From NCBI GenBank assembly GCA_027214385.1, contig JAPVXR010000002.1, forward strand, positions 248,001 to 312,000: DNA of 64,000 nt, given 5' to 3'. Each line of letters begins with the position of its first letter. The stretch's first letter is position 1. The position numbers were made by a program, and so were the translations under genes. Under the pieces are notes generated by a model. That model saw nothing but the letters and a program-made list of their open reading frames with translations, was not told the DNA's origin and ran no database searches. This DNA comes from Cryomorphaceae bacterium 1068 (lineage in GTDB: Bacteria; Bacteroidota; Bacteroidia; Flavobacteriales_D; Cryomorphaceae). This document shows, in pieces, positions 44,342 to 57,373 of this stretch.

Positions 44342-44372
44342 AAAGCCCTTGCGAATCGCAGGGGCTTTTTTT
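44342..44372 (+). terminator. Rho-independent terminator
   Basis: Stem AAAGCCCTTGCG / CGCAGGGGCTTT (one G-T pair) with a three-base loop and a following run of seven T residues, after the orphan sorting-domain fragment and just at the end of the convergent Na/Pi cotransporter gene. Confidence 0.75.
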
Positions 44373-46431
44373 AGATCTTCCCTGTCAAAGCCTCGCTCAC
44401 ATTCTCAATATGATCTCCCACTTTTTCCAAGGAAGAGAACAGATCGCTGTAGATCGTTCCGCTCCTCAGATTGTAATTGCCCGATTCGATTCGAGAAATG
44501 TACTCTCTTCTTAGCTTGTTGCGAAGTTGGTTGATCTCCTTTTCCAAGGTTTTGGCTTTTTCCAAGTTGATGTCTTTCTCCTCCTCCTTTTCAAGGTTTT
44601 CCAGCATCAGGTCCAGCGCCATATCAATGATGCCAAACATGCGCAGCAGCTTCTCTCTTTGATCAGGTGTAAACCAAATTTTCGAAGCAGTTTTCCTTTC
44701 GATGGTATTTGCCATCTGATAAAAGATGTCGCCGATACGCTCCAAGTCACTGCCTATGCTCAAGAAGGCTCTCACTTTTTCACTTGATGTCGGAGATAGT
44801 TCGGTAGCAGCCAAACGGCTGCAGTATTGGGAGATCTCTATCTCCATTCTATCGGTAATCTTCTCGTATTTCTTTATCCGAGTGAGTAGTTTTTCCTGGT
44901 GTATCTCATCCGTTTCTGTGAGCAGACTCTTCACGAAATTGGACATCCGCGCCACGATTTCCCCAAATCGAATCACCTGATTCTTTGCTTCCAAAACAGA
45001 GATTTCTGAAAGCTGAATCGAGGAGTCAATGTATTCCAAGCGGAACTCCTCGTCCTCTCCACCTCTCGATCTGACCGTTTTAGTGGCAAGCTTTACCAAA
45101 AGGGGAGTAAACCAAATCAGCAGGAGCAAATTGGCCAGGTTAAACACGGAGTGAAAAGCCGCCAGGGCTATAGTGGCTGCTTGATGACCCGCCTCCGTTT
45201 GCTCGTAAGGATCGGCAGGCATGTAGCTGCCGATTATTTTCAAGACGAAAGGCAAGGCGAGTACCATCCAAGCTACCCCTATCACATTGAAGAGCGTGTG
45301 AATTCGGGCACTTCGTTTGGCGTAGACATTTCCTACCAGTGCTGAGATTTCGGCGGTAGCAGTTGTTCCGATGTTTTCGCCGAGTACCATCGCTGCAGCT
45401 ACATCAAATGGAATGACGCCGCTGGCACAAAGCGCCATGGTAAGCGTGATGGCCGAAGAGGAGCTTTGAACAATCACCGTAACGATGATACCCAATGCGA
45501 TAAACATCAGCGTCCCCAAAACGGGTTGAGTGGAGTATTCGATAAAGAATTGGACGAAGGCTGAATCCTCGGTAAACGTAGGCACCGTATCGACCAGAAA
45601 TCCCAAGCCAAAAAGGATCAGAGCGAAGCCAATGAGTGCTGTAATCCAGTTTCGCACTCCTGGCCTTTTTACGAGCAATAAGGGTACAACGAAGGCGAAA
45701 ATGATGAGTGCATAAGTGGTAATGTTTACCCGAAAGCCTAAGAAGGAAACCAACCAGCCGGTGATCGTGGTCCCAATGTTTGCCCCCATCATAATTCCCG
45801 CAGACTCGGTAAGGCTGATCAATCCTGCATTTACGAAGCTCACGGTCATCACCGTTGTAGCACTAGAAGACTGGAGCAATCCCGTGAGTGTAAATCCGGT
45901 TAGGACCGCCGTAAATCGATTCTTGGTCATAGAGCCCAGAATGCTTCTGAGTTTGCTTCCGGCGCTTGCTTGGATCCCTTCACTCATGGTTTTCATTCCA
46001 TAGATGAAGAGGCAAAGCGAGCCTATCATTAGGAGAAACCGAGTAATCCCCCAAGCCATTTTCGTTTCGAATCGATCACGCGTGGTCCAAACAGCCTCGG
46101 GAGAGGGCGCATTGGTTGAAATAAAACCTACTTGATAGATGTATCCCGTAGCAGAATACATATCTGTGAGCTTAATGGAGCCTTCGGTGTAAGCCATCGT
46201 ATCAGTGTAGAGCCATACTTCTCCCTCATTTGCCAGTACGGCTGATCGATTGTACCGCACAACGACTGCAGTGGGAGAGTTTTCTGCCGTGCAATCCACC
46301 TTCCAGCTGATGCTGATCTCATCTTCGGCTACGTAAGCTCCATATACCTCAGGGGTAAAGTCTGCCTGCGCCCATAGCGAGATAGACGACAAGAGCAACA
46401 AAAGAGATATGAGAAAACGTGATTTTACCAC
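44371..46431 (-). CDS. Na/Pi cotransporter family protein with N-terminal Ig/FN3-like domain and PhoU domain
   Basis: From GTG 46431 the protein is 686 residues: signal peptide (about 1-22, ending WAQ), an FN3-like domain (about 25-125), eight or so membrane segments (about 130-430) with the paired QSSSA motifs of NptA transporters (GLLQSSSATT and VIVQSSSSAIT), and a C-terminal PhoU-like helical domain (about 460-680). The family carries Na-coupled phosphate or exports phosphate. The N-terminal extracellular/periplasmic domain is unusual. A -7 box TACCTTTG ends 6 nt before GTG, so upstream in-frame codons are not used and the mRNA may be leaderless. Confidence 0.88.
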   Translation of the reverse strand: MVKSRFLISLLLLLSSISLWAQADFTPEVYGAYVAEDEISISWKVDCTAENSPTAVVVRYNRSAVLANEGEVWLYTDTMAYTEGSIKLTDMYSATGYIYQVGFISTNAPSPEAVWTTRDRFETKMAWGITRFLLMIGSLCLFIYGMKTMSEGIQASAGSKLRSILGSMTKNRFTAVLTGFTLTGLLQSSSATTVMTVSFVNAGLISLTESAGIMMGANIGTTITGWLVSFLGFRVNITTYALIIFAFVVPLLLVKRPGVRNWITALIGFALILFGLGFLVDTVPTFTEDSAFVQFFIEYSTQPVLGTLMFIALGIIVTVIVQSSSSAITLTMALCASGVIPFDVAAAMVLGENIGTTATAEISALVGNVYAKRSARIHTLFNVIGVAWMVLALPFVLKIIGSYMPADPYEQTEAGHQAATIALAAFHSVFNLANLLLLIWFTPLLVKLATKTVRSRGGEDEEFRLEYIDSSIQLSEISVLEAKNQVIRFGEIVARMSNFVKSLLTETDEIHQEKLLTRIKKYEKITDRMEIEISQYCSRLAATELSPTSSEKVRAFLSIGSDLERIGDIFYQMANTIERKTASKIWFTPDQREKLLRMFGIIDMALDLMLENLEKEEEKDINLEKAKTLEKEINQLRNKLRREYISRIESGNYNLRSGTIYSDLFSSLEKVGDHIENVSEALTGKI

Positions 46432-46437
46432 AGCGCG

Positions 46438-46493
46438 CAAAGGTATTCTGAACCAATGCTTCAAGGTCCATAGTGGGGTTAATTTTATGTTAA
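46438..46493 (-). promoter_or_regulatory. Na/Pi cotransporter promoter with two TTAAC repeats
   Basis: On the minus strand the -7 box TACCTTTG occupies 46445-46438. Upstream are two perfect TTAAC units, 5' bases at 46493 and 46482, 11 bp apart, beginning 48 and 37 bp before the -7 box. The -37 position is the same as at three other promoters in this region. A TTG about 16 bp from the -7 box may be a weak -33 element. The factor is inferred to be an OmpR-family regulator. Confidence 0.65.
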
Positions 46494-46602
46494 TTCGGAG
46501 AGGCTTCAAAAAATCACCGGATTCAGCGGTTGTTCATGGTTTTGTGGGAATTAATCTTCCTTAAAACTTGAGTTCACATTGGGCAATTCTTATAAGCTAT
46601 TG

Positions 46603-46647
46603 TTAACGACCAATTAAGGTAGGCTTAATTCGCTCGCACTACTTTCG
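46603..46647 (+). promoter_or_regulatory. Promoter of the atypical response regulator with three TTAA repeats
   Basis: TTAAC (46603), TTAAG (46614) and TTAAT (46625) are 11 bp apart and start 37, 26 and 15 bp before the -7-like box TACTTTCG (46640-46647, one mismatch to TAnnTTTG). The arrangement, with repeats taking the place of the -33 element, resembles PhoB-type activation. Confidence 0.65.
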
Positions 46648-46663
46648 AACCGATAAAGTAGCC

Positions 46664-47362
46664 ATGTCGTCTTTTGCTGAAGTAGTATGTGTGATGGGGA
46701 AGAATAGTCAGTTTTCCCAATTGTCAAAGCTCATCGAGTCTGAGCATTTGAAAGTGCATTGTATCGACAATTCTGATGAAGTCATTTCGATCATTCAGCA
46801 ACGAAAACCCGCCTTGGTAATGATGGATCTTCTGCTCGAAGGAAAAGACGCCATAGACCTATTGAAGGAAATGGAGCTAAAAGGGTTGAGGCGGTTTTGT
46901 TCCGTGGTGATATTGAGCGACCGAAGGGAGAATTATGTAGAAATCACTGCCCTCAATTCGGGAGCGGATGATTTTTTGGTTAAACCAGTCAATAAGCGTG
47001 TTTTTGTAAGCCGACTGAGAGCTTGGATGAGAAGTCACGCTACACTGCGAGGGGCGATCAGTATTGCCAAGAACGGCGAGGAGATTGTCTTAGACAGAGA
47101 TAGATATACGCTGATTACGAAGGGCGAAGAGTATCTGCTGCAGCGAAAGGAGTTCGAGATCATATCCCTTTTGGCTTCCAAGCCAAAAAAGGTTTTCAGT
47201 CGGGATGAGATCAAGGAGTTGGTCTGGGGCGAGCCGAATCACTTGGTTCGGAATAGAACCATCGATGTTCATATCCGAAACCTTCGGGTCAAAATCGGAC
47301 GTCGTTATATTAAGACCTACAAAGGAGTCGGGTATTCCTTCGATACGTCCTTATCAAATTAG
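46664..47362 (+). CDS. OmpR-family response regulator with atypical receiver domain
   Basis: The 232-residue protein has a receiver domain (about 1-120) and a winged-helix DNA-binding domain (about 135-228, with DRDRYTLITKGEEYLLQRKEFEII and NRTIDVHIRNLRVKIG). The phosphorylated Asp is kept (Asp55, VMMDLLLEG) and so is the Lys in LVKPVN. The acidic pair that binds Mg, DD in the paralogue at 54571, is replaced by Met11-Gly12. Phosphorylation may thus be weak or absent. No histidine kinase is beside it. It is divergent from the Na/Pi cotransporter and has the same repeat type in its promoter. Its stop overlaps the convergent M14 gene by 4 bp. Confidence 0.88.
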   Translation: MSSFAEVVCVMGKNSQFSQLSKLIESEHLKVHCIDNSDEVISIIQQRKPALVMMDLLLEGKDAIDLLKEMELKGLRRFCSVVILSDRRENYVEITALNSGADDFLVKPVNKRVFVSRLRAWMRSHATLRGAISIAKNGEEIVLDRDRYTLITKGEEYLLQRKEFEIISLLASKPKKVFSRDEIKELVWGEPNHLVRNRTIDVHIRNLRVKIGRRYIKTYKGVGYSFDTSLSN

Positions 47363-49047
47363 CGAAGCTCAAACACGGGTATTCTCAAGTGCCCTTTTTC
47401 GTAGTGGATCGAATTTTCGTAAATGTATTTGAGCTGCGCTCGGGCATCTTTCGCGAAGGCGGGATCTTTTTGTTTTTTTGAGTCAAACGATCGGCGCAAA
47501 GTGACATCTCTTTCCAAGATTTCGGCTGCTGTTTTTTCAAACAGGTAGGAAGAGAAGTACTCCTTTTGGTTCAAGACAGAATCGAAAAAATTCCAACTGA
47601 AGAAGCTGTCCTCACTCTGGGGATCGAGGGCTGTGGCCAAATAGCGTCGGGCATTTTGATTGGTTGGAATGAGGTAATCACCTTCGAAAAACTGAATGGT
47701 TTCTTCCCTTTCCGCCGTACCGACGTTTTTATGCGGGTAATGACCCTCATAGGGCCTTTCAGAAGTTTCGTAGTAGGTGGCATACCTGGAAGTGACATCC
47801 ATTAAGGTGTCTTCGGGGAGTTGGTACATTTCCACATTATTGGCCTCGAGCCTTTCGATCACCTCACTCCAAGCTTGCGGAATCAAATAGAACTCGGGCA
47901 ACACCACTCTGTAATATCCCTTCACTTCGTTGTAATAAGGCACCTTTCTCCTGTAGGGCTTTTTACGATCGTATTCTACGAAGGCCTCTCCCGAGAGCAC
48001 ACTCGTTGAGTTTTTCGCTTCGTATCCGGGAAAAGCTAAGCTGTCAACACCCTTTCCTATTTGCCATTTGGTGTAGAACCCTTCTGCCCCTCTCGTATTC
48101 TGATCCGCTATGCTTTTTAGTTTTCTCACAATCGATCCTTTTTCGGCAAGAAAAGAATCCATGCTTTCTAAAAAGTGGCTCGTAGCCTCCACTCTCCGAT
48201 CGAAAGATTTCAGCATATGAGCCTCGGTAGTGAAGCCAAGCGTATTGAACAGAGCTGCATATCCCGTGCTGTATCGCGGATAGTCCAAGAAGGCATAGAT
48301 GCCTTCTTCGGGAGTTTTGCCCTTGAAGTTTATATATGGGATCATTTCATCATTGAGTGATTTCATGCTTTGATAGAGAGCGGGCTCCAATTCTCTTTTC
48401 AGGAACGTAGCTTGCATCGGGTCAAGCTTTTCAGGAAAAGTCGATAAGAGAGTTAAGCTGGGTTGATAATCTGCCCCATTTGAAGTGTGGGTATCTATAA
48501 GAATGTGTGGGGTCCAGAGGTGAAATAATCTGGAAAAGGCTAAGGCATTTTCAGAATCGGCCTTGATGAAATCCCGATTGAGGTCAAGGTTCTTGGCGTT
48601 TCCACGAAAGCCGTATTCTTCAGGTCCTTCTTGATTGGCCCGTGTGTGGCTGTTGCGATTTAATGCTCCACCTACATTGTAAATGGGAATGATGACATAG
48701 ATCAACCCCGGAGTTGGCTCGGCCGCCTTTTGCATGGCGAAGGCGATGGAAGCATTGATTCCGCAAGCCTCACCCGGATGAATTCCGTTGATAATTAACG
48801 TCACTGTTTGCTCATTCGTCAGAGCTGACTTGGGAGAGAATTCACCTTTCGGGTCGATAACCAAATAGTGAAGTGGTTTTCCATTGTCCGTTTTACCGAT
48901 GGTATTGAGCTGAGCAGTATTGGGGTGATCAGCTGCAATTCGCTCGTAGAATGCGATTGCTTCTGAATAAGTGGGAGTATGGTTGGATGGAAATTGCCCA
49001 AACGCATTTGCAGACAGGGCTATAAGAAAAATGGAAAGGATTCGCAC
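47359..49047 (-). CDS. Secreted M14-family zinc carboxypeptidase
   Basis: The 562-residue protein has a signal peptide (1-17, ending AFG) and an M14 domain with the zinc motif GIHPGEACG (HxxE, about residues 89-97), NLDLNRDF, and the third ligand segment IDTHTSNGADY. A likely catalytic Glu lies in GFTTEAHML. Such enzymes trim peptides from the C-terminus, in the periplasm or outside. The C-terminal region (about 330-562) is not assigned. The start is GTG at 49047. The gap to the next divergent gene holds TTAA repeats that might affect it as well, but they are 1 bp out of register for this gene. Confidence 0.87.
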   Translation of the reverse strand: MRILSIFLIALSANAFGQFPSNHTPTYSEAIAFYERIAADHPNTAQLNTIGKTDNGKPLHYLVIDPKGEFSPKSALTNEQTVTLIINGIHPGEACGINASIAFAMQKAAEPTPGLIYVIIPIYNVGGALNRNSHTRANQEGPEEYGFRGNAKNLDLNRDFIKADSENALAFSRLFHLWTPHILIDTHTSNGADYQPSLTLLSTFPEKLDPMQATFLKRELEPALYQSMKSLNDEMIPYINFKGKTPEEGIYAFLDYPRYSTGYAALFNTLGFTTEAHMLKSFDRRVEATSHFLESMDSFLAEKGSIVRKLKSIADQNTRGAEGFYTKWQIGKGVDSLAFPGYEAKNSTSVLSGEAFVEYDRKKPYRRKVPYYNEVKGYYRVVLPEFYLIPQAWSEVIERLEANNVEMYQLPEDTLMDVTSRYATYYETSERPYEGHYPHKNVGTAEREETIQFFEGDYLIPTNQNARRYLATALDPQSEDSFFSWNFFDSVLNQKEYFSSYLFEKTAAEILERDVTLRRSFDSKKQKDPAFAKDARAQLKYIYENSIHYEKGHLRIPVFELR

Positions 49048-49093
49048 AGTGTTATTTTTCGACGAATATAGCTAAGACCGTGCCTTGCTCGTC

Positions 49094-49169
49094 TTAACAA
49101 TTAATTAATAAAACACAGCCATGTTTAACACAGGCTTAAAGAATTGCTGAAGCTATGAGCCTACTTTTG
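49094..49169 (+). promoter_or_regulatory. Promoter with two pairs of TTAA repeats (for the gene at 49174)
   Basis: TTAAC (49125) and TTAAA (49136) are 11 bp apart and start 37 and 26 bp before the perfect -7 box TACTTTTG (49162-49169). A second pair, TTAAC (49094) and TTAAT (49105), also 11 bp apart, lies further upstream. The -7 box ends 4 nt before the GTG start codon, so a leaderless transcript is expected. Confidence 0.65.
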
Positions 49170-49173
49170 CTTC

Positions 49174-49506
49174 GTGAAAAATTACTTGATTCTATTCGCC
49201 TTTGTTTTATTCTGCTTTTCGGCTACGGCCGGAAACTCGGATAAAAAGACAAAATCTGAAAAGGCTACTTGCTCTTATTCAGGTAAAGTGCTGGACGCTG
49301 AAAATGCCGAAGCGCTGACAGGTGCCACTGTTAAGTTAGTTGAGATAGACCAAGAGGTTTATGCCGATTTCGACGGAGAGTTTATTTTCGAAAATATCCC
49401 CGCAGGAACGTACACGCTTGAGATCAGTTTTGTGAGCTACGATACCAAAGTGGTTCAAGATTTCACCATAGAGGAAGGCGCGAAGTCCAAGAGATTCCTG
49501 TTGTAA
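49174..49506 (+). CDS. Small secreted CarboxypepD_reg-like domain protein
   Basis: The 110-residue protein has a signal peptide (about 1-19, ending ATA) and one carboxypeptidase regulatory-like Ig domain (about 30-110: YSGKVLDAENAEALTGATVKL, DFDGEFIFENIPAGTYTLEI, SFVSYDT). Such domains usually sit at the N-terminus of TonB receptors. Here the domain stands alone. The signal peptide begins exactly at GTG 49174, which supports this start. The function is unknown. A clear terminator follows and the promoter carries the TTAAC repeats, so it probably belongs to the same regulon as the Na/Pi cotransporter. Confidence 0.82.
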   Translation: MKNYLILFAFVLFCFSATAGNSDKKTKSEKATCSYSGKVLDAENAEALTGATVKLVEIDQEVYADFDGEFIFENIPAGTYTLEISFVSYDTKVVQDFTIEEGAKSKRFLL

Positions 49507-49523
49507 TCCGATTTTCAGGGTGA

Positions 49524-49555
49524 ATGTTGCAGAGTTAAGCTGCAACATTTTTTTT
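49524..49555 (+). terminator. Rho-independent terminator
   Basis: Stem AATGTTGCAG / CTGCAACATT with a 7-base loop and a run of eight T residues, 18 bp after the stop of the CarboxypepD_reg-like gene. Confidence 0.85.
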
Positions 49556-49572
49556 CGTTTCGACGTTTAATG

Positions 49573-49610
49573 TTACCAAATTGTTAAGAAAAGCTTACCT
49601 TCGTATTAAC
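49573..49610 (+). promoter_or_regulatory. Four TTA(A/C) units at 11-bp spacing upstream of the MORN-type gene
   Basis: TTACC (49573), TTAAG (49584), TTACC (49595) and TTAAC (49606) are each 11 bp apart. A -7-like box TACCTTCG (49596-49603) overlaps the third unit, so the register differs from the other promoters in this region. The last units may be coincidental. Confidence 0.45.
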
Positions 49611-49638
49611 GAGAGAAGGAACACATTAAACGAGAGTC

Positions 49639-50070
49639 ATGAAAAAGTCAGTATTCATAGCAGTTTTAGGATTATTTACAGCCTCAGCAGTATTTGCCCA
49701 AGAAGGTGAATTGGTGAGTGTAGATGATCAAAGCAGTAAAGCCTATTACACGTACAACCAGAATTACAACATCGAACCAGATGGTTCATATAGTGGAAAT
49801 ATTGCCGCCTACTTTGAAGATGGTAGCATCGAAGAAGTTGGAGTTTTGAGCAAAGGAGCCAAGACCGGAAAATGGCTGAAGTACAATTCAGAAGGAAAAG
49901 TTGTTGCTTCTGCCACCTTCAAAGAAGGTAAGAAAGACGATGTTTGGAGCGTCTGGGATGGAAATGGTAATTTAAGAATGACCATGCAGTACGACGAAGG
50001 AAAAAGAGTCGGAACCTGGAAGTTCTATGACGAGAACGGAGAGCTTATCAACGAAAAGACGTACGATTAA
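49639..50070 (+). CDS. Secreted MORN/YwqK-type repeat protein
   Basis: The 143-residue protein has a signal peptide (1-20, ending VFA) and then MORN-like repeats of the YwqK antitoxin type: GNIAAYFEDGSIEEVG, KTGKWLKYNSEGKVV, KDDVWSVWDGNGNLR, RVGTWKFYDENGELI. The repeats form a beta-meander. Despite the family name, no toxin gene is next to it, and the signal peptide argues against a cytoplasmic antitoxin role. It is followed by a perfect bidirectional terminator. Regulation may be shared with neighbours through TTAA repeats. Confidence 0.82.
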   Translation: MKKSVFIAVLGLFTASAVFAQEGELVSVDDQSSKAYYTYNQNYNIEPDGSYSGNIAAYFEDGSIEEVGVLSKGAKTGKWLKYNSEGKVVASATFKEGKKDDVWSVWDGNGNLRMTMQYDEGKRVGTWKFYDENGELINEKTYD

Positions 50071-50080
50071 AAAATACACA

Positions 50081-50120
50081 GCACAAAAAAAGGGGCGCAT
50101 TTGCGCCCCTTTTTTTGTGC
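50081..50120. terminator. Perfect bidirectional terminator
   Basis: Two 19-bp arms (GCACAAAAAAAGGGGCGCA at 50081-50099 and its exact complement at 50102-50120) around TT, with A- and T-runs on either side, between convergent genes. Confidence 0.9.
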
Positions 50121-50132
50121 TCTATTCTTTCA

Positions 50133-52973
50133 TCAGAATGTGTATCGATAAGAAAGTCGGATGGTTGTTCCCGGCTTGAAGGACTGAAATACTTGATCGC
50201 TTGCTCCGAATGATCGGTAGACCAATGTTCTGTCATCATCAAGAAGGTTGTTAGCCCCCAATGTAATTCTGGAGTTCAGCTTTTCGCCAAAGCTGTAATA
50301 AGCATTGAAGTCCAAACTCTGGAAAGGTATTGTGTACACATCAGGTCTTCTTCCTGAAGCAATAATGGTGAGTTGCTCACCTTGCACATTATAAGCAAGA
50401 GAGAAATTCATTTGCTTCTCGATAATCTCATAACTCAAATTGGCATTGATCGAATAAGGTGATTGGCCAGCCATGTCACGCTCAAAGTCAATAGTCTCTC
50501 CGGGTCTCAGATTCTCTAATCGGAGTTCGTATTCCGTCTGTCCTTCGTTGCCTGTATTCACTTCGCGCATATCTACTGCCGATTGAACCAAAGTCAGGTT
50601 TCCACCGATGAAGAAGCGGTTTAATATCTTACTGGTTTCATTGGCCAAAAAGCCAAGACTCTTTTTCACCTCCATTTCCACTCCCAATACATCGGCAGAT
50701 CCCGAGTTTCGTGGTTTGAGGTTGTCCGGGGCCGTTTCAAAAGCCACCAATTCAATGTGGCCGTCGAACTGCTTGTAGAAACCGGCTATCGAAATCAATT
50801 CGCGAGGACCAAGGAACCACTCCCATCTCAAGTCGTAATTCTGGATTTCCGTTTGCTGCAGATCAATATTACCCACGAAAGTTCTCTTAGTAATCGGGTC
50901 AAAGATTTGAGCGTTTGATTTCTCTTTAAAGCTTGGTCTTGCTAAAGTCTGCGTGTACGATGCACGAATGTTCATATCCTTGGTGGCCTTGTACACAAGG
51001 TTCAAAGAGGGTAAGAAGTTCAATTCGTCGAGCGTCTTTTCATCGTTCAGGTCTTGGCTTTCCTCACCGGTAACTCCGGTATAAAACATCGAACCTTGTT
51101 CAACACGCAAACCATAGATCACGCGAATTTTTTCAAGTAGACTATTCTCTCCCATTACATAACCGGCAAAAACATTCTGTCTCGCTTCAAATGTATTGAT
51201 GGGTTCAAAGTTTCCGATGGTGAAAGTTCCTGAATTGTCAGTGGGAGTCCACACATTTTCCTCTCTGAGGAACCAGTCGGGATCACCGACGATATCAGAC
51301 TTATTCACTCGATCGTGTCCGTATGCGAGCGTTTCAAAATCTCTCCACTTCAATAAAGCGTTTGCTCCCGCAGAAACTTTAAATGTGTTGTTGATTTCAT
51401 AGGTTGCATCTACTCGTACATTCTCATTGATTTCATTCAGATCTCTCCAAAAGCGGTCTATACCTGCTCCGTCACCTGTGTTCAAGGTAGTATCGCCCGT
51501 GGTTACAGAGAAAGCCGTTGACCTGAAGTCGGGATCATAAACACGAGAACGAGTGAAGGCATTTCGCCATTCAATATTCAGCTTATCGAAATTGTGACGC
51601 CCTCCCACCATAAATGTCGTGAGTGATCTCTGCGTATAGGTGAGAATGTCTTCGACCAATCTGGCTTGAGTTTGGTTCAAGTTCCTCGATTTTCGCTGCG
51701 ATGCTGAAGTTTCTCCACTTTGGCTGTGAAGCAACATCGCGGTAAAGTCTGAATTTCCTTTTTTGTAGGCAGCGGCGCCCAAGGCACTCCATTGCACTTC
51801 GTTTCTACCCACTACTCCAATTCGCTCTTCATCTTTGAAGAGTTCAGTTTCACCTTCACTGTCTCCTGCCGGCTTGAGAAAAGTATTGGCCTCGAAATCT
51901 TCGTAGTAAGTATTGTTGTTCCGATAGTTCAAAACAAAGTTGTACCCCCAAGTACCACCGTTTTCCTTGTTGATCTGATTACCGTGCCGCACAGACAAAG
52001 AAGTGTTCAAAAATGCGTTTGCCTTTGAAGCTGCAAGAGTTGGGTTAAATGAACGCGTGATGCTTTCCAACGCGGGATCATTCAAAGGCTCTACCGGGAT
52101 TTCGGTATTCTTATTAATGGGCAATTCTCTCGTACCGTCGTCAAAGCCTAAGAAATCCAAACTCCCTCTGTCGTATAGAATAAAGTCGCTGTTGAACGTC
52201 TGATCGATGGTGTAACCTACTCCCAAAGAAATCTGAGTTTCTTTAATGTCTGGAAAATTTTTGGTTACAATATTGACCAAACCTCCTGTGAAGTCTCCAT
52301 ACTGGTCAGGCGTAAATGATTTAAAAACGGCGACATTTTCGAGAACTGACGTTGGGAAGATGTCGATGGCCACTGCATTCACATCAGGATCCAAGCCGGG
52401 AATTGACATCCCGTTAAGGGTGGTCTTCGTGTATCGATCTCCAAGACCACGCACATAAACGTACTTACCTCCTTGTACCGTTACACCGGTAACACGCTTG
52501 ATAGCTCCTGAAAGGTCAGAGTCACCGATTTTTCGGATGGACTGAACAGAAAGACCGTCCGTTACAGCAGTCGCATTTTTCATATCCATCAGAACTGCGG
52601 TCTCTGTATTTCTTCTCGCCTCTGCCACGATTTCTACCGCCGCGAGTTCGTCCACAGCAGGCTTCAACTCAGTGTCTAGTACCGTAACTTCACCCGCTTC
52701 TATAGTAATCCCTGTGAAGGTTTGGCTTACGAATGAAATGAAAGAGATCTTGATGTCATAAGTTCCCGGGGCTAAAGGCAGAGAGTAGTTCCCGTCAAAA
52801 TCAGTGATCGTACCTACTCCAGGCTGATTAGCCAAAATAACCGTGGCACCAATCATTGGCCCACCTATTTCTCCATCTGCCACGTTTCCACGTAGAAAAC
52901 CTTTTTCCTGGGCTTGAGCCAAACTTCCAACGAAAACCAGAAGCAGAAACATGTAATACCTCACTTGAATCAT
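50133..52973 (-). CDS. TonB-dependent receptor with CarboxypepD_reg-like domain
   Basis: The 946-residue receptor has a signal peptide (about 1-22, ending AQA), a CarboxypepD_reg-like domain (about 25-105, MIGATVILANQPGVGTITDFDG), a plug (about 125-240, YVYVRGLGDRYTKTTLNGMSIPG) and a barrel ending GTTIRLSYRYTF. ATG at 52973 is used in place of the TTG one codon upstream. It lies 82 bp downstream of a beta-helix lipoprotein gene with a hairpin between, so both are probably in one transcript. Proximity to a PhoB/PhoR-like pair and a phosphate transporter suggests uptake of a phosphorus-containing compound, but this is inference. Confidence 0.92.
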   Translation of the reverse strand: MIQVRYYMFLLLVFVGSLAQAQEKGFLRGNVADGEIGGPMIGATVILANQPGVGTITDFDGNYSLPLAPGTYDIKISFISFVSQTFTGITIEAGEVTVLDTELKPAVDELAAVEIVAEARRNTETAVLMDMKNATAVTDGLSVQSIRKIGDSDLSGAIKRVTGVTVQGGKYVYVRGLGDRYTKTTLNGMSIPGLDPDVNAVAIDIFPTSVLENVAVFKSFTPDQYGDFTGGLVNIVTKNFPDIKETQISLGVGYTIDQTFNSDFILYDRGSLDFLGFDDGTRELPINKNTEIPVEPLNDPALESITRSFNPTLAASKANAFLNTSLSVRHGNQINKENGGTWGYNFVLNYRNNNTYYEDFEANTFLKPAGDSEGETELFKDEERIGVVGRNEVQWSALGAAAYKKGNSDFTAMLLHSQSGETSASQRKSRNLNQTQARLVEDILTYTQRSLTTFMVGGRHNFDKLNIEWRNAFTRSRVYDPDFRSTAFSVTTGDTTLNTGDGAGIDRFWRDLNEINENVRVDATYEINNTFKVSAGANALLKWRDFETLAYGHDRVNKSDIVGDPDWFLREENVWTPTDNSGTFTIGNFEPINTFEARQNVFAGYVMGENSLLEKIRVIYGLRVEQGSMFYTGVTGEESQDLNDEKTLDELNFLPSLNLVYKATKDMNIRASYTQTLARPSFKEKSNAQIFDPITKRTFVGNIDLQQTEIQNYDLRWEWFLGPRELISIAGFYKQFDGHIELVAFETAPDNLKPRNSGSADVLGVEMEVKKSLGFLANETSKILNRFFIGGNLTLVQSAVDMREVNTGNEGQTEYELRLENLRPGETIDFERDMAGQSPYSINANLSYEIIEKQMNFSLAYNVQGEQLTIIASGRRPDVYTIPFQSLDFNAYYSFGEKLNSRITLGANNLLDDDRTLVYRSFGASDQVFQSFKPGTTIRLSYRYTF

Positions 52974-52994
52974 CAATATTCTTTTTTAATATGT

Positions 52995-53023
52995 AAGCCC
53001 CAAGACTCATCGTCTTGGGGCTT
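52995..53023 (-). terminator. Hairpin between the lipoprotein and the TonB receptor genes
   Basis: A 12-bp stem (AAGCCCCAAGAC / GTCTTGGGGCTT) with a 5-base loop. On the minus strand it is followed by ACATATT rather than a T-run, so it may be an RNA-stabilising or partial terminator structure and not a full stop. Confidence 0.5.
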
Positions 53024-53055
53024 TAATGGGCTGATTTTTTATTTTGATTACTCGA

Positions 53056-54327
53056 TTAGAGCTCTCCCTTTTCTCCGGCTAGAGTCCAGCCGAAAACAGT
53101 ATTTAGATCTAAGGTTGCACCTGCACCCATCGGCTCTATGGCACCTTCTGCCAGTGTCTGAGCAGCTGCTAATTCATTCGGACAAGAAGTTGGGTTCTCT
53201 TCGTCTTCGTCGCCGTCATATACTTCAACACCACCACTAATTTCATCTTCAGTAAAGATCAAAGTTGGGTTAGCATCAGTAAGGTTTCCGAAAGCATCAG
53301 ATCGGTACTCACAAGCATCAGTGAATCGAGTTCTGAATTTCACCTCTTTATCACCTGATTCAAAAGTCACGTTATTCACGTTTCCTTGAGCACCTGATTT
53401 GAAGTCAGCAGCTGAACCATCAGCGCCTTCGATTCTGCAAATACCGTTGTTCAATGTGAAAAGACCGTCAGTGTAAGTGTCATTCTCCGGTCCGTCAATT
53501 TCAAGACTTTCATCGGTGCCAATTCCGTCTCCGTGAATAACTGCGAAGTTTGAGATGGTTCCTGAATAGTTCATGTCTAGGTCAATTCCGTCGTCACCTT
53601 GGTAGTATACCAATGCATTATCGATGTCAACAGTTCCACCGAAACACTCAATTCCGTCATCAAGTGTAGCGTAAACTTCTACGTTGTTGATTGTCGTACC
53701 TGTTCCAACTCCACCTAGAGTCAAACCGTTGATTTCGTTCCCTTCTCCGATGGAGATACCACCGTGACGGATAGAAACGTATTCGAAAACTCCTGAGTCA
53801 TCACCTGGCTCATCACCACCGTAGAGACCGTATCCTGCTTCAGCAGGTAGTCCTTCGATATTGGTTTCAGTGTCACCATCTTCAGCGCTAATCGGAGCGC
53901 TACCCAAGATGATTACACCACCCCAAAGCTGGTTGTCAGTTCGGTCCAAGTTAGTACCTGCTGTTTCACCTACCTGGATATTATCCGCAGAAGAAGTGAA
54001 GATGATTGGCGCTGCTGCCGATGATCCGCTGGTTTCAATTCGGCCACCTCTGGCAACGATAAGAGCCGATGCAGCAGTACCTTGACCTGAAGCGGCTTTG
54101 ATGATCGCTCCACCTTCTATAATGAGTGTAGCACCGTTATCAACTACTACTCTACCGTTGAGAGATGTAATTTCATTCGCAGGCCATGTTTCAGTACCTG
54201 TGATAATTCTCACAGTGTTTGTTGGAGGAGTATCTTCTTCGTCGTCATCATCGTCGCAAGAAGTCAATAGCAATGACCCCATCATCAAGATGGCAGCCAT
54301 GTTTCTAAGTTTTCTAAAGTTATTCAT
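53056..54327 (-). CDS. Surface lipoprotein with parallel beta-helix
   Basis: The 423-residue protein has a lipoprotein signal (LLTSC, Cys24) followed by an Asp/Glu run (DDDDDEED) and a body that reads as a right-handed parallel beta-helix: repeated G-x-L/I-V-x-x-G rungs such as NGRVVVDNGATLIIEGGAII and later NNVEVYATLDDGIECFGG. Such proteins occur next to TonB receptors, perhaps as surface partners that bind a polymer or organic molecule. It is divergent from the response regulator gene at 54571 and precedes the TonB receptor in the same direction. The ligand is unknown. Confidence 0.82.
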   Translation of the reverse strand: MNNFRKLRNMAAILMMGSLLLTSCDDDDDEEDTPPTNTVRIITGTETWPANEITSLNGRVVVDNGATLIIEGGAIIKAASGQGTAASALIVARGGRIETSGSSAAAPIIFTSSADNIQVGETAGTNLDRTDNQLWGGVIILGSAPISAEDGDTETNIEGLPAEAGYGLYGGDEPGDDSGVFEYVSIRHGGISIGEGNEINGLTLGGVGTGTTINNVEVYATLDDGIECFGGTVDIDNALVYYQGDDGIDLDMNYSGTISNFAVIHGDGIGTDESLEIDGPENDTYTDGLFTLNNGICRIEGADGSAADFKSGAQGNVNNVTFESGDKEVKFRTRFTDACEYRSDAFGNLTDANPTLIFTEDEISGGVEVYDGDEDEENPTSCPNELAAAQTLAEGAIEPMGAGATLDLNTVFGWTLAGEKGEL

Positions 54328-54485
54328 TTGGTGAAATGTTTGTCGTTAGGTATTTCGTTTTTTGATGCCACAAAGAAAGGGGGAGTGAATTAGCGTAAGA
54401 TGAATTCTAACTTACCTCTGAGTTATTCTATTGTTGTCTCAATGTTAAGAGGTGGTCTTGCCTTTTGTGATTCTTATATTTGAAC

Positions 54486-54541
54486 TTAATTTAGGTTTAA
54501 CAACCGAATAACAAGGCGGGAGAATTCAACACCTAATTTTG
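54486..54541 (+). promoter_or_regulatory. Promoter of the two-component operon with three TTAAC-type repeats
   Basis: TTAAT (54486), TTAAC (54497) and ATAAC (54508) are 11 bp apart and start 48, 37 and 26 bp before a perfect -7 box TAATTTTG (54534-54541), 29 nt before the GTG start. Repeats of a regulator's own site at its operon suggest autoregulation. The same intergenic region also serves the divergent lipoprotein gene. Confidence 0.68.
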
Positions 54542-54570: not shown

Positions 54571-55251
54571 GTGAAAAAAGAAAAGATCCTTTTGGTCGAT
54601 GATGAACAAGACATTATTGACTTGATCAGCTACAATTTAGAAAAGGAGAACTATCAAGTTAAGTCTGCTCTGAATGGGCGCGACGCGATAGAAACGGCCA
54701 AGGAATTCCTGCCTGACTTAATTCTTTTGGATGTAATGATGCCCGAAATGGACGGTATCGAGACGTGCGTAGAAATGAGAGAAATCGATTCTCTAAAGCC
54801 CAGTATCATCGCATTTTTGACTGCCAGAGGTGAAGATTATTCGCAAATTGCGGGATTTGATGCGGGCGCGGATGATTACATTTCAAAACCGATAAAGCCT
54901 AGAGTTTTACTTTCCAGAATTCAAGCACTTCTCCGTCGAAAACGATCAGCCTCTGACGCAAGGACTGGCGCTCCTGTTGGCGGCATCGTCATCGACAAAG
55001 AAAAGTATTTGGTGGTCCAAGATGGGAAAGAGCTCAACTTACCCAAAAAAGAATTTGAGTTGCTTGCACTGCTCATTAGCAAGCCCGGTCGCGTATTCAC
55101 TCGCGAGATCATTCTCAATACAATTTGGGGAAATGACGTGGTGGTCGGCGATCGAACCATTGATGTGCACATCCGAAAACTTCGAGAGAAAATCGGGAGC
55201 AAATTCATCAAAACCATCAAAGGAGTCGGTTACAAATTCGAAGCTAAATGA
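54571..55251 (+). CDS. OmpR/PhoB-family response regulator
   Basis: The 226-residue protein has a complete receiver (about 1-120) with the acidic pair Asp10-Asp11 (LLVDDEQD), phospho-Asp54 (LLDVMMPEMDG), a Thr in FLTARGED and Lys in YISKPIKP, and a winged-helix DNA-binding domain (about 130-226, FTREIILNTIWGN, RTIDVHIRKLREKIG, IKGVGYKFEA). It is closest in kind to PhoB-like regulators. Starts at GTG 54571. It overlaps the histidine kinase by 4 bp. The repeat-bearing promoter and the phosphate-transport gene nearby favour phosphate control, without proof. Confidence 0.9.
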   Translation: MKKEKILLVDDEQDIIDLISYNLEKENYQVKSALNGRDAIETAKEFLPDLILLDVMMPEMDGIETCVEMREIDSLKPSIIAFLTARGEDYSQIAGFDAGADDYISKPIKPRVLLSRIQALLRRKRSASDARTGAPVGGIVIDKEKYLVVQDGKELNLPKKEFELLALLISKPGRVFTREIILNTIWGNDVVVGDRTIDVHIRKLREKIGSKFIKTIKGVGYKFEAK

Positions 55252-56288
55252 CAGGACGAAGTCCTTTCAAAGTAGCTGTTTTTACAGCTGTTATCGTGGC
55301 CTTGGCCATTTTCTTCCTGCTAATCGGCACGCTTCTTCTTTTTGGTGAAAAAATCGACTGGCTTCAGGTTGTCGTTTTTACCTCATTGGCATTTCTTTCT
55401 TCTTGGTTGGTGATCTACAAATCACTACAGCGCTTCATTTACGCCAAGATCAAGCTCATCTTTCGAAATATGCACTCCCTCAAAGTGGGGCGATCTGCTT
55501 TCAGGCTCGACATGTCTAAAGATGTACTGGGAGATGTAAATAAAGAAGTTGTCGATTGGGCCGAAGACCGTATGGCCGAAATCGAAGATCTTCGAGAGAA
55601 AGAGAACTTTAGAAAAGAATTTGTTGGCAACGTGGCTCATGAGCTCAAGACACCGATTTTCAGTATTCAGGGCTACATCTTGACCCTCTTGGAAGGAGCG
55701 CTGGAAGATCCCAATTTCAACCGAAAATTTCTCATGAAAGCCGCCAAGTCTGTGGATCGAATGACCATGCTGGTGGAAGATCTTGACACCATTACCCAAT
55801 TTGAGTCTGGTAGCTTAAAGCTGGATATCGAGAAGATTGATATCGTAGAATTGGTGAAAGAAGTCATAGAACAAAGAGAAGAAGAAGCAAAGCAGAAAGA
55901 AATCACCATTGGGTTCAATAAGAACTATGACAAGCCGATATATGTCGAAGCTGACTCATTCAGAGTGAGTCAAGTGCTCATTAACCTCATTACAAACTCC
56001 ATCAATTACGGAAAGATTGGAGGGAAAACTACAGTGAGATTCTTTGATTTGGATGAGCGAATTCTCATTGAAGTTGAAGATGATGGGCCGGGTATTGACA
56101 AGGAGCACATCCCCAGACTTTTTGAGCGTTTTTATCGTGTCGATAAAAGTCGATCTCGCCATCAAGGTGGCACGGGGCTGGGGCTTGCTATCTGTAAGCA
56201 CATTATCGAGGGTCATGAGCAATCGCTCAATGTGAGAAGCGAAGTCGGGAAAGGATCCGTCTTTTCGTTTACCCTGGCTAAGGCCTGA
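55248..56288 (+). CDS. PhoR-like sensor histidine kinase with no extracellular domain
   Basis: The 346-residue protein has two membrane segments (about 8-32 and 39-57) joined by only about six residues, so no room for an external sensor domain. Then follow a linker, the H-box FVGNVAHELKTPIFSIQGY (phospho-His131), and the ATP-binding domain with the N-box (LINLITNSINYG), G1 (VEDDGPGI), F-box (LFERFYRVDKS) and G2 (GGTGLGLAI). The layout is like PhoR, which senses phosphate through transporter and PhoU rather than directly. It is coupled to the response regulator by ATGA. Confidence 0.92.
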   Translation: MTGRSPFKVAVFTAVIVALAIFFLLIGTLLLFGEKIDWLQVVVFTSLAFLSSWLVIYKSLQRFIYAKIKLIFRNMHSLKVGRSAFRLDMSKDVLGDVNKEVVDWAEDRMAEIEDLREKENFRKEFVGNVAHELKTPIFSIQGYILTLLEGALEDPNFNRKFLMKAAKSVDRMTMLVEDLDTITQFESGSLKLDIEKIDIVELVKEVIEQREEEAKQKEITIGFNKNYDKPIYVEADSFRVSQVLINLITNSINYGKIGGKTTVRFFDLDERILIEVEDDGPGIDKEHIPRLFERFYRVDKSRSRHQGGTGLGLAICKHIIEGHEQSLNVRSEVGKGSVFSFTLAKA

Positions 56289-57338
56289 CTATTGCTTCAA
56301 GAACGCTTCAACAACCTTGCTATCTGATTTAAAAAAGCCAAATCTCTCTTTGGTCTGAAACTCTTTATTCAAGCCTCTCTTTATTCGTTCCACATCTAGT
56401 TTTTCCTGACTGCAGGTTGAAAACTGCGGTTGTATCCTCATCCTGCCGGCCAGATACTCTTGTTCTGATTGCCCCGGAGTAGGGATCAAAAGTGCCTTGG
56501 ATCCGATCACCATCAAATCGCAGATCGTAGAGTATCCCGAACGGCCAATGACCAATTCGCAAGCAGCAAGCTTTGAGGCCATCTCTTCGCCATCTCCAAG
56601 AGGGGTGTTTTCAATACTGTCGTCACCAAGTTCATCTATAGATTCACTTCCTCGAAAAAGAATTTTTTTCCCTTCAATGGACTTTAGAATTTTTAAGAGA
56701 TGTTTTTCCAGGATACTCCGTTGGGGCTCAGGGCCGCCCAGAACTACACCGATACGGTATTTTTTTTCAGCGATGTTATCCTTCATAAAGCGCGAAGGAA
56801 TTCCCAGGTGCTTTTTGGGAATCATCACTTTTTGGCTTGAAGCCAAATCACCTGATACCAGATGGTTGGGCCCGTCCGGAATCCATACTTCCGAAAATTG
56901 GTTGATCCAATTCGCCAGTTTGGCGTTTATCAAGCTTTCGCCAAAAGGCGCCTTAAGCGAAAGCTGATGGCTGATAAGTGCCGATGGAACGCCGTCGTTA
57001 TAGGCTCCATATACATTGTCAGAGACAATATGAGTGAACTTCTTTGCTTCCACAAGCTTTGATATAAAACGATGTTGCTCGGAGTTTATATTCGACTGGA
57101 CAAGTGCCCTTTTGATCATCCCTGACTTTGCCCCTTTTTTAGAGTACAGTATTTCCCTGTCGGGCAAATCGTAGAAAACGAATGCCGGAAATCTCTTTTT
57201 CAAGTAGCTGAGCGCCAATCCCGATGAAGTGATTTCTACTTCTGCCCCAAAGTGCTGTAGCGATTCGATGATTGGCACGGAGCGCGTGGCATGGCCCAAG
57301 CCCCAATTCAATACTGCGTAAAGCACTCGTTTTTCCAT
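56289..57338 (-). CDS. MurG/UGT-like glycosyltransferase family protein
   Basis: The 349-residue protein has the two-domain GT-B look: N-terminal LYAVLNWGLGHATRSVPIIE (about 5-24) and a C-terminal nucleotide-binding segment LVIGRSGYSTICDLMVIGSKALLIPTPGQSEQ (about 265-296), as in MurG-like and UDP-glucuronosyltransferase-like enzymes. Donor and acceptor are unknown. ATG at 57338 is used because the codons upstream overlap a perfect -7 box (57343-57350) that ends 4 nt before it, so the mRNA may be leaderless. It is divergent from trmB. Confidence 0.82.
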   Translation of the reverse strand: MEKRVLYAVLNWGLGHATRSVPIIESLQHFGAEVEITSSGLALSYLKKRFPAFVFYDLPDREILYSKKGAKSGMIKRALVQSNINSEQHRFISKLVEAKKFTHIVSDNVYGAYNDGVPSALISHQLSLKAPFGESLINAKLANWINQFSEVWIPDGPNHLVSGDLASSQKVMIPKKHLGIPSRFMKDNIAEKKYRIGVVLGGPEPQRSILEKHLLKILKSIEGKKILFRGSESIDELGDDSIENTPLGDGEEMASKLAACELVIGRSGYSTICDLMVIGSKALLIPTPGQSEQEYLAGRMRIQPQFSTCSQEKLDVERIKRGLNKEFQTKERFGFFKSDSKVVEAFLKQ

Positions 57339-57342
57339 CGAC

Positions 57343-57350
57343 CAAAGATA
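57343..57350 (-). promoter_or_regulatory. -7 box for the glycosyltransferase gene (leaderless)
   Basis: TATCTTTG on the minus strand, perfect TAnnTTTG, ends 4 nt before the ATG. A TTG 16 bp upstream could be the -33 element. Confidence 0.55.
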
Positions 57351-57373
57351 CATGCGAAACCGAGTGCAATGGC

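Follow-up and report, generated by a model that had tools for sequence, protein, structure and literature searches.

The PhoBR operon of Flavobacterium johnsoniae is strongly induced by phosphate depletion. Low phosphate gives log2 fold changes of 8.0 for a TonB receptor, 9.9 for a pectin-lyase-fold (beta-helix) lipoprotein, and 3.1 for PhoB, and the text searched defines no binding site for PhoBR (PMC8115612). The Riemerella anatipestifer regulator PhoP binds TTTAACA by DAP-seq and EMSA, including at its own promoter, both with and without phosphorylation (PMC9603813). Apart from this Riemerella PhoP motif, no Bacteroidota Pho box was found in the literature searched. The Pho box of the cyanobacterial PhoB protein SphR is CTTAACCT with 3-bp linkers, repeated directly in tandem at least three times ahead of phosphate genes, and that of Escherichia coli PhoB consists of at least 2 direct repeats at 11 bp upstream of a core promoter element (PMC1906773). 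In Staphylococcus aureus, the C-terminal PhoU domain of NptA modulates PhoPR, a PhoP/PhoR-type system (PMC13170248).

We analyzed a 64,000-nucleotide stretch of DNA from Cryomorphaceae bacterium 1068 (contig JAPVXR010000002.1, positions 248,001 to 312,000), hereafter the window. It contains a block of genes in the order NptA, regulator, M14 peptidase, CarboxypepD_reg, MORN, TonB receptor, beta-helix, PhoB, PhoR, and glycosyltransferase (GT), which is syntenic among the members of its family, apart from a few losses, rearrangements, and breaks between contigs (Table 1). Domain searches identified the MORN protein and agreed with the initial annotation, which had placed 2 OmpR-family regulators, a transporter with a PhoU domain, and a PhoR-like kinase in this stretch. 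PhoB (54571..55251) has an OmpR-type receiver and a winged helix, and the PhoR-like kinase gene is adjacent. Its top-scoring NCBIfam models are TIGR02154 and NF053854, although both scores fall under the curated cut-offs (218.5 against 296.2 bits and 209.5 against 270, respectively). The Pfam scan gave no match for the beta-helix lipoprotein. As in F. johnsoniae, where most of these genes are phosphate-induced, PhoB and PhoR lie together with a TonB receptor, a beta-helix lipoprotein, and a glycosyltransferase; the likeness is one of gene kinds and order only (PMC8115612). In contrast, nptA and an atypical PhoB paralogue are not described within the PhoBR locus in the text searched (PMC8115612).

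Table 1. Genes, candidate Pho-box arrays, and -7 boxes of the locus in window coordinates. Distances in brackets are counted from the first base of the -7 box in gene orientation.
Feature	Position	Strand	Remarks
nptA, Na/Pi cotransporter with C-terminal PhoU domain	44371..46431	-	PF02690 E=4.7e-52, PF01895 E=1.4e-17; start codon 6 nt after -7 box
nptA -7 box TACCTTTG	46438..46445	-	conserved box 48 bp from array start
nptA candidate Pho-box array	46478..46493	-	TTAAC 46493-46489 (-48), TTAAC 46482-46478 (-37)
Atypical-regulator candidate array	46603..46629	+	TTAAC 46603 (-37), TTAAG 46614 (-26), TTAAT 46625 (-15)
Atypical regulator gene -7 box TACTTTCG	46640..46647	+	
Atypical PhoB-like OmpR-family regulator	46664..47362	+	receiver and winged-helix domains; best NCBIfam model PhoB TIGR02154, below cut-off
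CarboxypepD_reg gene, upstream 11-bp pair	49094..49109	+	TTAAC 49094 (-68), TTAAT 49105 (-57); kept in L085, L087, L089
CarboxypepD_reg gene, proximal 11-bp pair	49125..49140	+	TTAAC 49125 (-37), TTAAA 49136 (-26)
CarboxypepD_reg gene -7 box TACTTTTG	49162..49169	+	GTG start codon 4 nt downstream
Small secreted CarboxypepD_reg-like protein	49174..49506	+	PF13715 E=1.3e-15
TonB-dependent receptor	50133..52976	-	PF00593, PF07715; matches Fjoh_0545 by position
Beta-helix lipoprotein (FII-like)	53056..54327	-	orthologues adjoin PhoB; matched to Fjoh_0546 solely on position and description
Probable -7 element CATCTTAC of fifth-array promoter	54395..54402	-	non-canonical; 46 bp from first unit; position kept in L084, L085, L087
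Fifth array, beta-helix/TonB-receptor genes	54411..54448	-	TTAAC, ACAAC, ATAAC, GTAAG in 11-bp steps; upstream of both genes
phoBR candidate Pho-box array	54486..54512	+	TTAAT 54486 (-48), TTAAC 54497 (-37), ATAAC 54508 (-26)
phoBR -7 box TAATTTTG	54534..54541	+	
PhoB-like response regulator	54571..55251	+	receiver and winged-helix domains; best NCBIfam model TIGR02154 PhoB
PhoR-like histidine kinase	55248..56288	+	HisKA, HATPase_c; PnpS and PhoR score best among NCBIfam models, under the cut-off

Four promoters of the locus, those of nptA, the atypical regulator, the CarboxypepD_reg gene, and phoBR, carry 2 or more tandem direct repeats with an 11-bp period. The initial annotation had described these repeats, and its units and -7 boxes proved correct to the base, with TTAAC standing 37 bp before the -7 box in all four cases. 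Unit sequence and register are read directly from the DNA. The repeat unit is NTTAAC with C at 62%, and the units are therefore direct repeats pointing toward the gene. An inverted-repeat reading of TTAA was rejected on the same directional fifth base. Upstream of the beta-helix and TonB-receptor genes we found a fifth array, absent from the initial annotation, which is shifted by 2 bp out of register and has a non-canonical -7 box; its TTAAC-N17-ATAAC arrangement and a further TAA unit after it are conserved in 4 relatives (L084, L085, L087, and L089). No clear array was found upstream of the GT gene (56289-57353).

The -7 box of F. psychrophilum lies at -12 to -5 (PMC9723704), and with this placement the units would fall at about -60, -49, -38, and -27, as expected of an upstream activator array that covers or abuts the -33 element. 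We read the arrays as predicted PhoB-type Pho boxes that keep a constant register with the -7 box of Bacteroidota, with a probability of about 0.85. Points that weigh against this reading are the PhoB scores under the cut-offs, the shifted fifth array, the AT-rich and palindromic TTAA core, the differing phoB spacing in Flavobacteriaceae, and the order-wide sites at genes with no clear link to phosphate (both below). They share the 11-bp period and the TTAAC core with the SphR boxes, yet belong to another phylum and promoter type, keep a fixed distance to TANNTTTG, and consist of TTAAC-N6 units with looser flanks (PMC1906773). The E. coli Pho box differs in its CTGT-type core and in position, its pair beginning some 29 bp ahead of the -10 hexamer (boxes of 8+3+8 bp, then 10 bp), compared with 37 bp before the -7 box here (PMC1906773). 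Riemerella PhoP is likewise a Bacteroidota regulator with a TTAAC core and autoregulation, and its PhoPR is upregulated in phosphate starvation; in contrast, the text read describes neither a promoter register nor an 11-bp grammar, and the comparison covers motif and regulation (PMC9603813).

Several further features of promoters in the window were recorded. The start codons of nptA and the CarboxypepD_reg gene lie 4 to 7 nt past the -7 box (window 46431 and 49174, and the orthologues in L084 to L089), which suggests Pho transcripts with little or no leader. The MORN gene promoter (window 49575-49620) has a TTAAGAAAAGCTTA-CTT core that is conserved in several relatives and differs from the Pho array. 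On the minus strand at 37141-37090, TTAAC-N6-TTAAC stands 51 and 40 bp before TACATTTG, 3 bp out of register, upstream of a gene for a 101-aa glycogen-binding-like protein.

Among the family genomes that show the respective promoter, the nptA pair (-48/-37) is in register in 7 of 7 and the triple of the atypical regulator (-37/-26/-15) in 7 of 7 orthologues. PhoB keeps its -37/-26 units in 7 of the 8 genomes of the family, and the eighth retains -48 and -26. The spacers between units differ among relatives, and the identity of the regulator to its orthologues is 48 to 75%. In 4 of 5 promoter sets, the four-column block of highest conservation lies at the TTAA phase or at most 1 base from it; the beta-helix set (six rows, of which L087 is mis-anchored) is shifted from this phase, as suggested by its own -7 box. 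We then counted the spacing from each 11-bp pair to TANNTTYG in nine related loci, leaving out the window and covering 50 spacings (16-65). Of 35 events, 33 fall at 26, 37, or 48 (5, 15, and 13, respectively, with 2 elsewhere), events that are not independent, given the common descent of the relatives and the repeated counting of units that overlap within an array. Beyond the family, both in the rest of the order and in further Bacteroidota, spacing peaks appear again at 37, 48, and 49, with 59 also in the further Bacteroidota; in Flavobacteriaceae, most phoB arrays stand 41-43 or 52 from the apparent box instead. The repeats had been taken as sites of an OmpR/PhoB-type activator, and a register conserved across the family and beyond supports this prediction. 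In one locus (L099, G053:C16), 2 PhoB copies about 5 kb apart flank the beta-helix and TonB-receptor genes and have identical BLAST scores to the window PhoB.

Genome-wide counts were obtained by pattern searches of the 4.32-Mb genome. TTAAC exactly 37 bp before the box (TTAAC-N32-TANNTTYG) occurs 15 times, compared with about 3.6 matches for each of the other spacings (103 over 29 spacings; 118 in total for spacers of 20-49; Poisson 5e-6). This excess is not due to chance. According to the printed contexts, a second unit 11 bp away fitting TTAAN or ATAAC is present at 4 of the 15 sites, and these are the four locus promoters. The strict pattern TTAA-N7-TTAA-N22-TANNTTYG has 2 matches in the genome, both at the locus; by this measure the sites are local, which supports the local regulon proposed initially. 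A three-unit pattern with one mismatch performed no better than its reversed control (7 genome sites, 2 of them at the locus). Could the arrays reflect chance or the general texture of AT-rich promoters? TTAA is palindromic, AT-rich, and common in AT-rich intergenic DNA, and there are 11 further TTAAC-at-37 sites in the genome. However, the concentration of spacings in relatives at 3 of the 50 values, the register conservation in 7 of 7 family genomes at nptA and at the atypical regulator, and the accumulation of sites at one gene family (see below) contradict chance, which we regard as extremely improbable. General TTAAC texture was rejected on the spacing histogram of the nine relatives' loci.

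Two sites elsewhere in the genome were also noted. At G000:C2:503345-503389 (L019), ATAAC, AACAC, and TTAAC stand at -59, -48, and -37 before TAGCTTTG, upstream of an ORF for a 132-aa response regulator, which is a possible extra member of the regulon. At G000:C2:144818-144862 (L003 and L012), three TTAAC units precede the box of a gene for a secreted protein; their distances of 37, 19, and 8 bp do not match the phase of the Pho array.

The association with phosphate genes was examined by scanning 150 genomes of the order for TTAAC-N6-TTAAY-N32-TANNTTTG, a search not anchored on the locus. It returned 47 sites in 34 genomes, whereas the control with the pattern reversed gave 12. Of the 47 sites, 21 stand before NptA and 3 before PhoB (for 5 sites, the gene that follows was identified by eye or left unnamed); outside the family of Cryomorphaceae bacterium 1068, the figures are 14 NptA and 2 PhoB of 39. 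The chance of 21 NptA sites is about 3e-55 at a rate of 1.5 NptA promoters per 2500, which is our own assumption; related genomes are not independent, and the excess is sensitive to neither. In-register arrays precede NptA in families f1, f3, f4, f8, and f13. The remaining sites precede mixed genes, including those for 2 TetR regulators, a MarC protein, surface proteins, and TonB-plug proteins; about half of all sites stand before genes without a clear phosphate role, some by chance, and therefore not every match is a Pho box. In more distant Bacteroidota, in-register arrays were found before genes for PstS-type binding proteins (F. aquicola and F. agrisoli), before porin O/P in F. agrisoli, before Pit (PHO4 transporters) in 3 loci, and before DUF47 (PitR-type) in 1. 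The gene content of these distant loci is biased toward phosphate because they were fetched around PhoB genes, a bias that the 150-genome scan does not have. The PhoB probe for the named-genome scan had as its first row a Flavobacterium-like PhoB sequence that served for fetching real loci only, and the 80 returned did not include F. johnsoniae.

Conservation and gene association are likewise direct observations. The same arrangement precedes phosphate-uptake genes in related bacteria, and the array is therefore very probably the landing site of the phosphate-starvation switch. The initial assignment to phosphate is strengthened by the NptA and PhoB sites, by the pstS, Pit, and DUF47 promoters, and by synteny with the F. 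johnsoniae PhoBR locus (PMC8115612). Alternatively, the arrays might be bound by a regulator for another signal, such as redox or envelope, with a secondary link to phosphate genes. Other OmpR-family regulators use similar repeats, and the Riemerella PhoP motif resembles that of ArcA, with the Bat operon among the direct targets (PMC9603813). We consider this very unlikely: sites in register cluster before NptA and PhoB, other Bacteroidota have them at pstS, Pit, and DUF47, and the orthologous F. johnsoniae locus responds to phosphate (PMC8115612).

The genome has a PhoB/PhoR pair, one Pit gene, and one NptA, and PstB was not found at E<=1e-60 in it or in 8 relatives, whereas the same search was positive in 13 of 14 control genomes. 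PhoX was also not found in the genome. Pit is missing too in several relatives. NptA, whose promoter bears the boxes, is therefore the likely regulated phosphate importer. S. aureus differs in also having Pst, PhoU, Pit, and PitR (PMC13170248). By analogy with its NptA, the transporter is the likely source of the signal to PhoR: in a circuit without Pst, phosphate status would probably be signalled through the PhoU domain of NptA.

The second regulator has lost the acidic pair of its receiver (DDE to G-x-N in 7 of 7 orthologues), as is characteristic of atypical response regulators, and retains the phospho-Asp (Asp55), Lys107, and a recognition helix near-identical to that of PhoB. We infer that its action is set by its own dose, through the three-unit promoter, rather than by phosphorylation. 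Alternatively, the boxes might be mainly those of this regulator, as a phosphorylation-independent OmpR-type factor controlling its own promoter and its neighbors. Its promoter has the most strictly kept array, its recognition helix is nearly the PhoB one, and it divergently adjoins nptA in the family genomes. On the other hand, family f1 alone yielded close orthologues of the paralogue, at an identity of about 50% or higher, and in other families the same array and register stand before NptA and PhoB where the best matches are PhoB-like. We therefore judge control mainly by the atypical regulator unlikely and retain PhoB as the predicted principal occupant of the boxes.

In the proposed mechanism, each TTAAC-N6 unit would accommodate a single DNA-binding domain from a PhoB-type regulator, with the domains arranged head-to-tail on one face of the DNA. 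From 37 bp (±11) upstream of the -7 box, phosphorylated PhoB would recruit RNA polymerase in phosphate starvation. Binding and activation are what we infer for nptA, phoBR, the TonB receptor and beta-helix lipoprotein genes, the small CarboxypepD_reg protein gene, and the PhoB paralogue gene. The paralogue, without the acidic pair needed for normal phosphorylation, would probably bind the same boxes independently of phosphorylation and set gain or shut-off. We hold the signal route and the role of the paralogue with less confidence than the Pho-box reading. In a tentative model, possible but with the odds somewhat against it, a Pho circuit without Pst would have NptA-PhoU report phosphate to PhoR, and a PhoB paralogue particular to the family and not normally phosphorylatable would either compete with PhoB or cooperate with it at the shared fixed-register boxes, as a built-in gain control.

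Sequence comparison predicts that the array is a genuine Pho-type operator in a fixed register, conserved and coherent in function. This type of element is already known; what is new is its grammar in Bacteroidota, together with a circuit that lacks Pst and includes a PhoB paralogue. Phosphate-starvation genes of Bacteroidota have so far been known from transcriptomics and proteomics. The unit sequence and the exact promoter register provide a scannable rule that would predict Pho regulons genome by genome, uncultured lineages included, and the presence of a PhoB paralogue beside a transporter-sensor in genomes without Pst poses a separate regulatory question.
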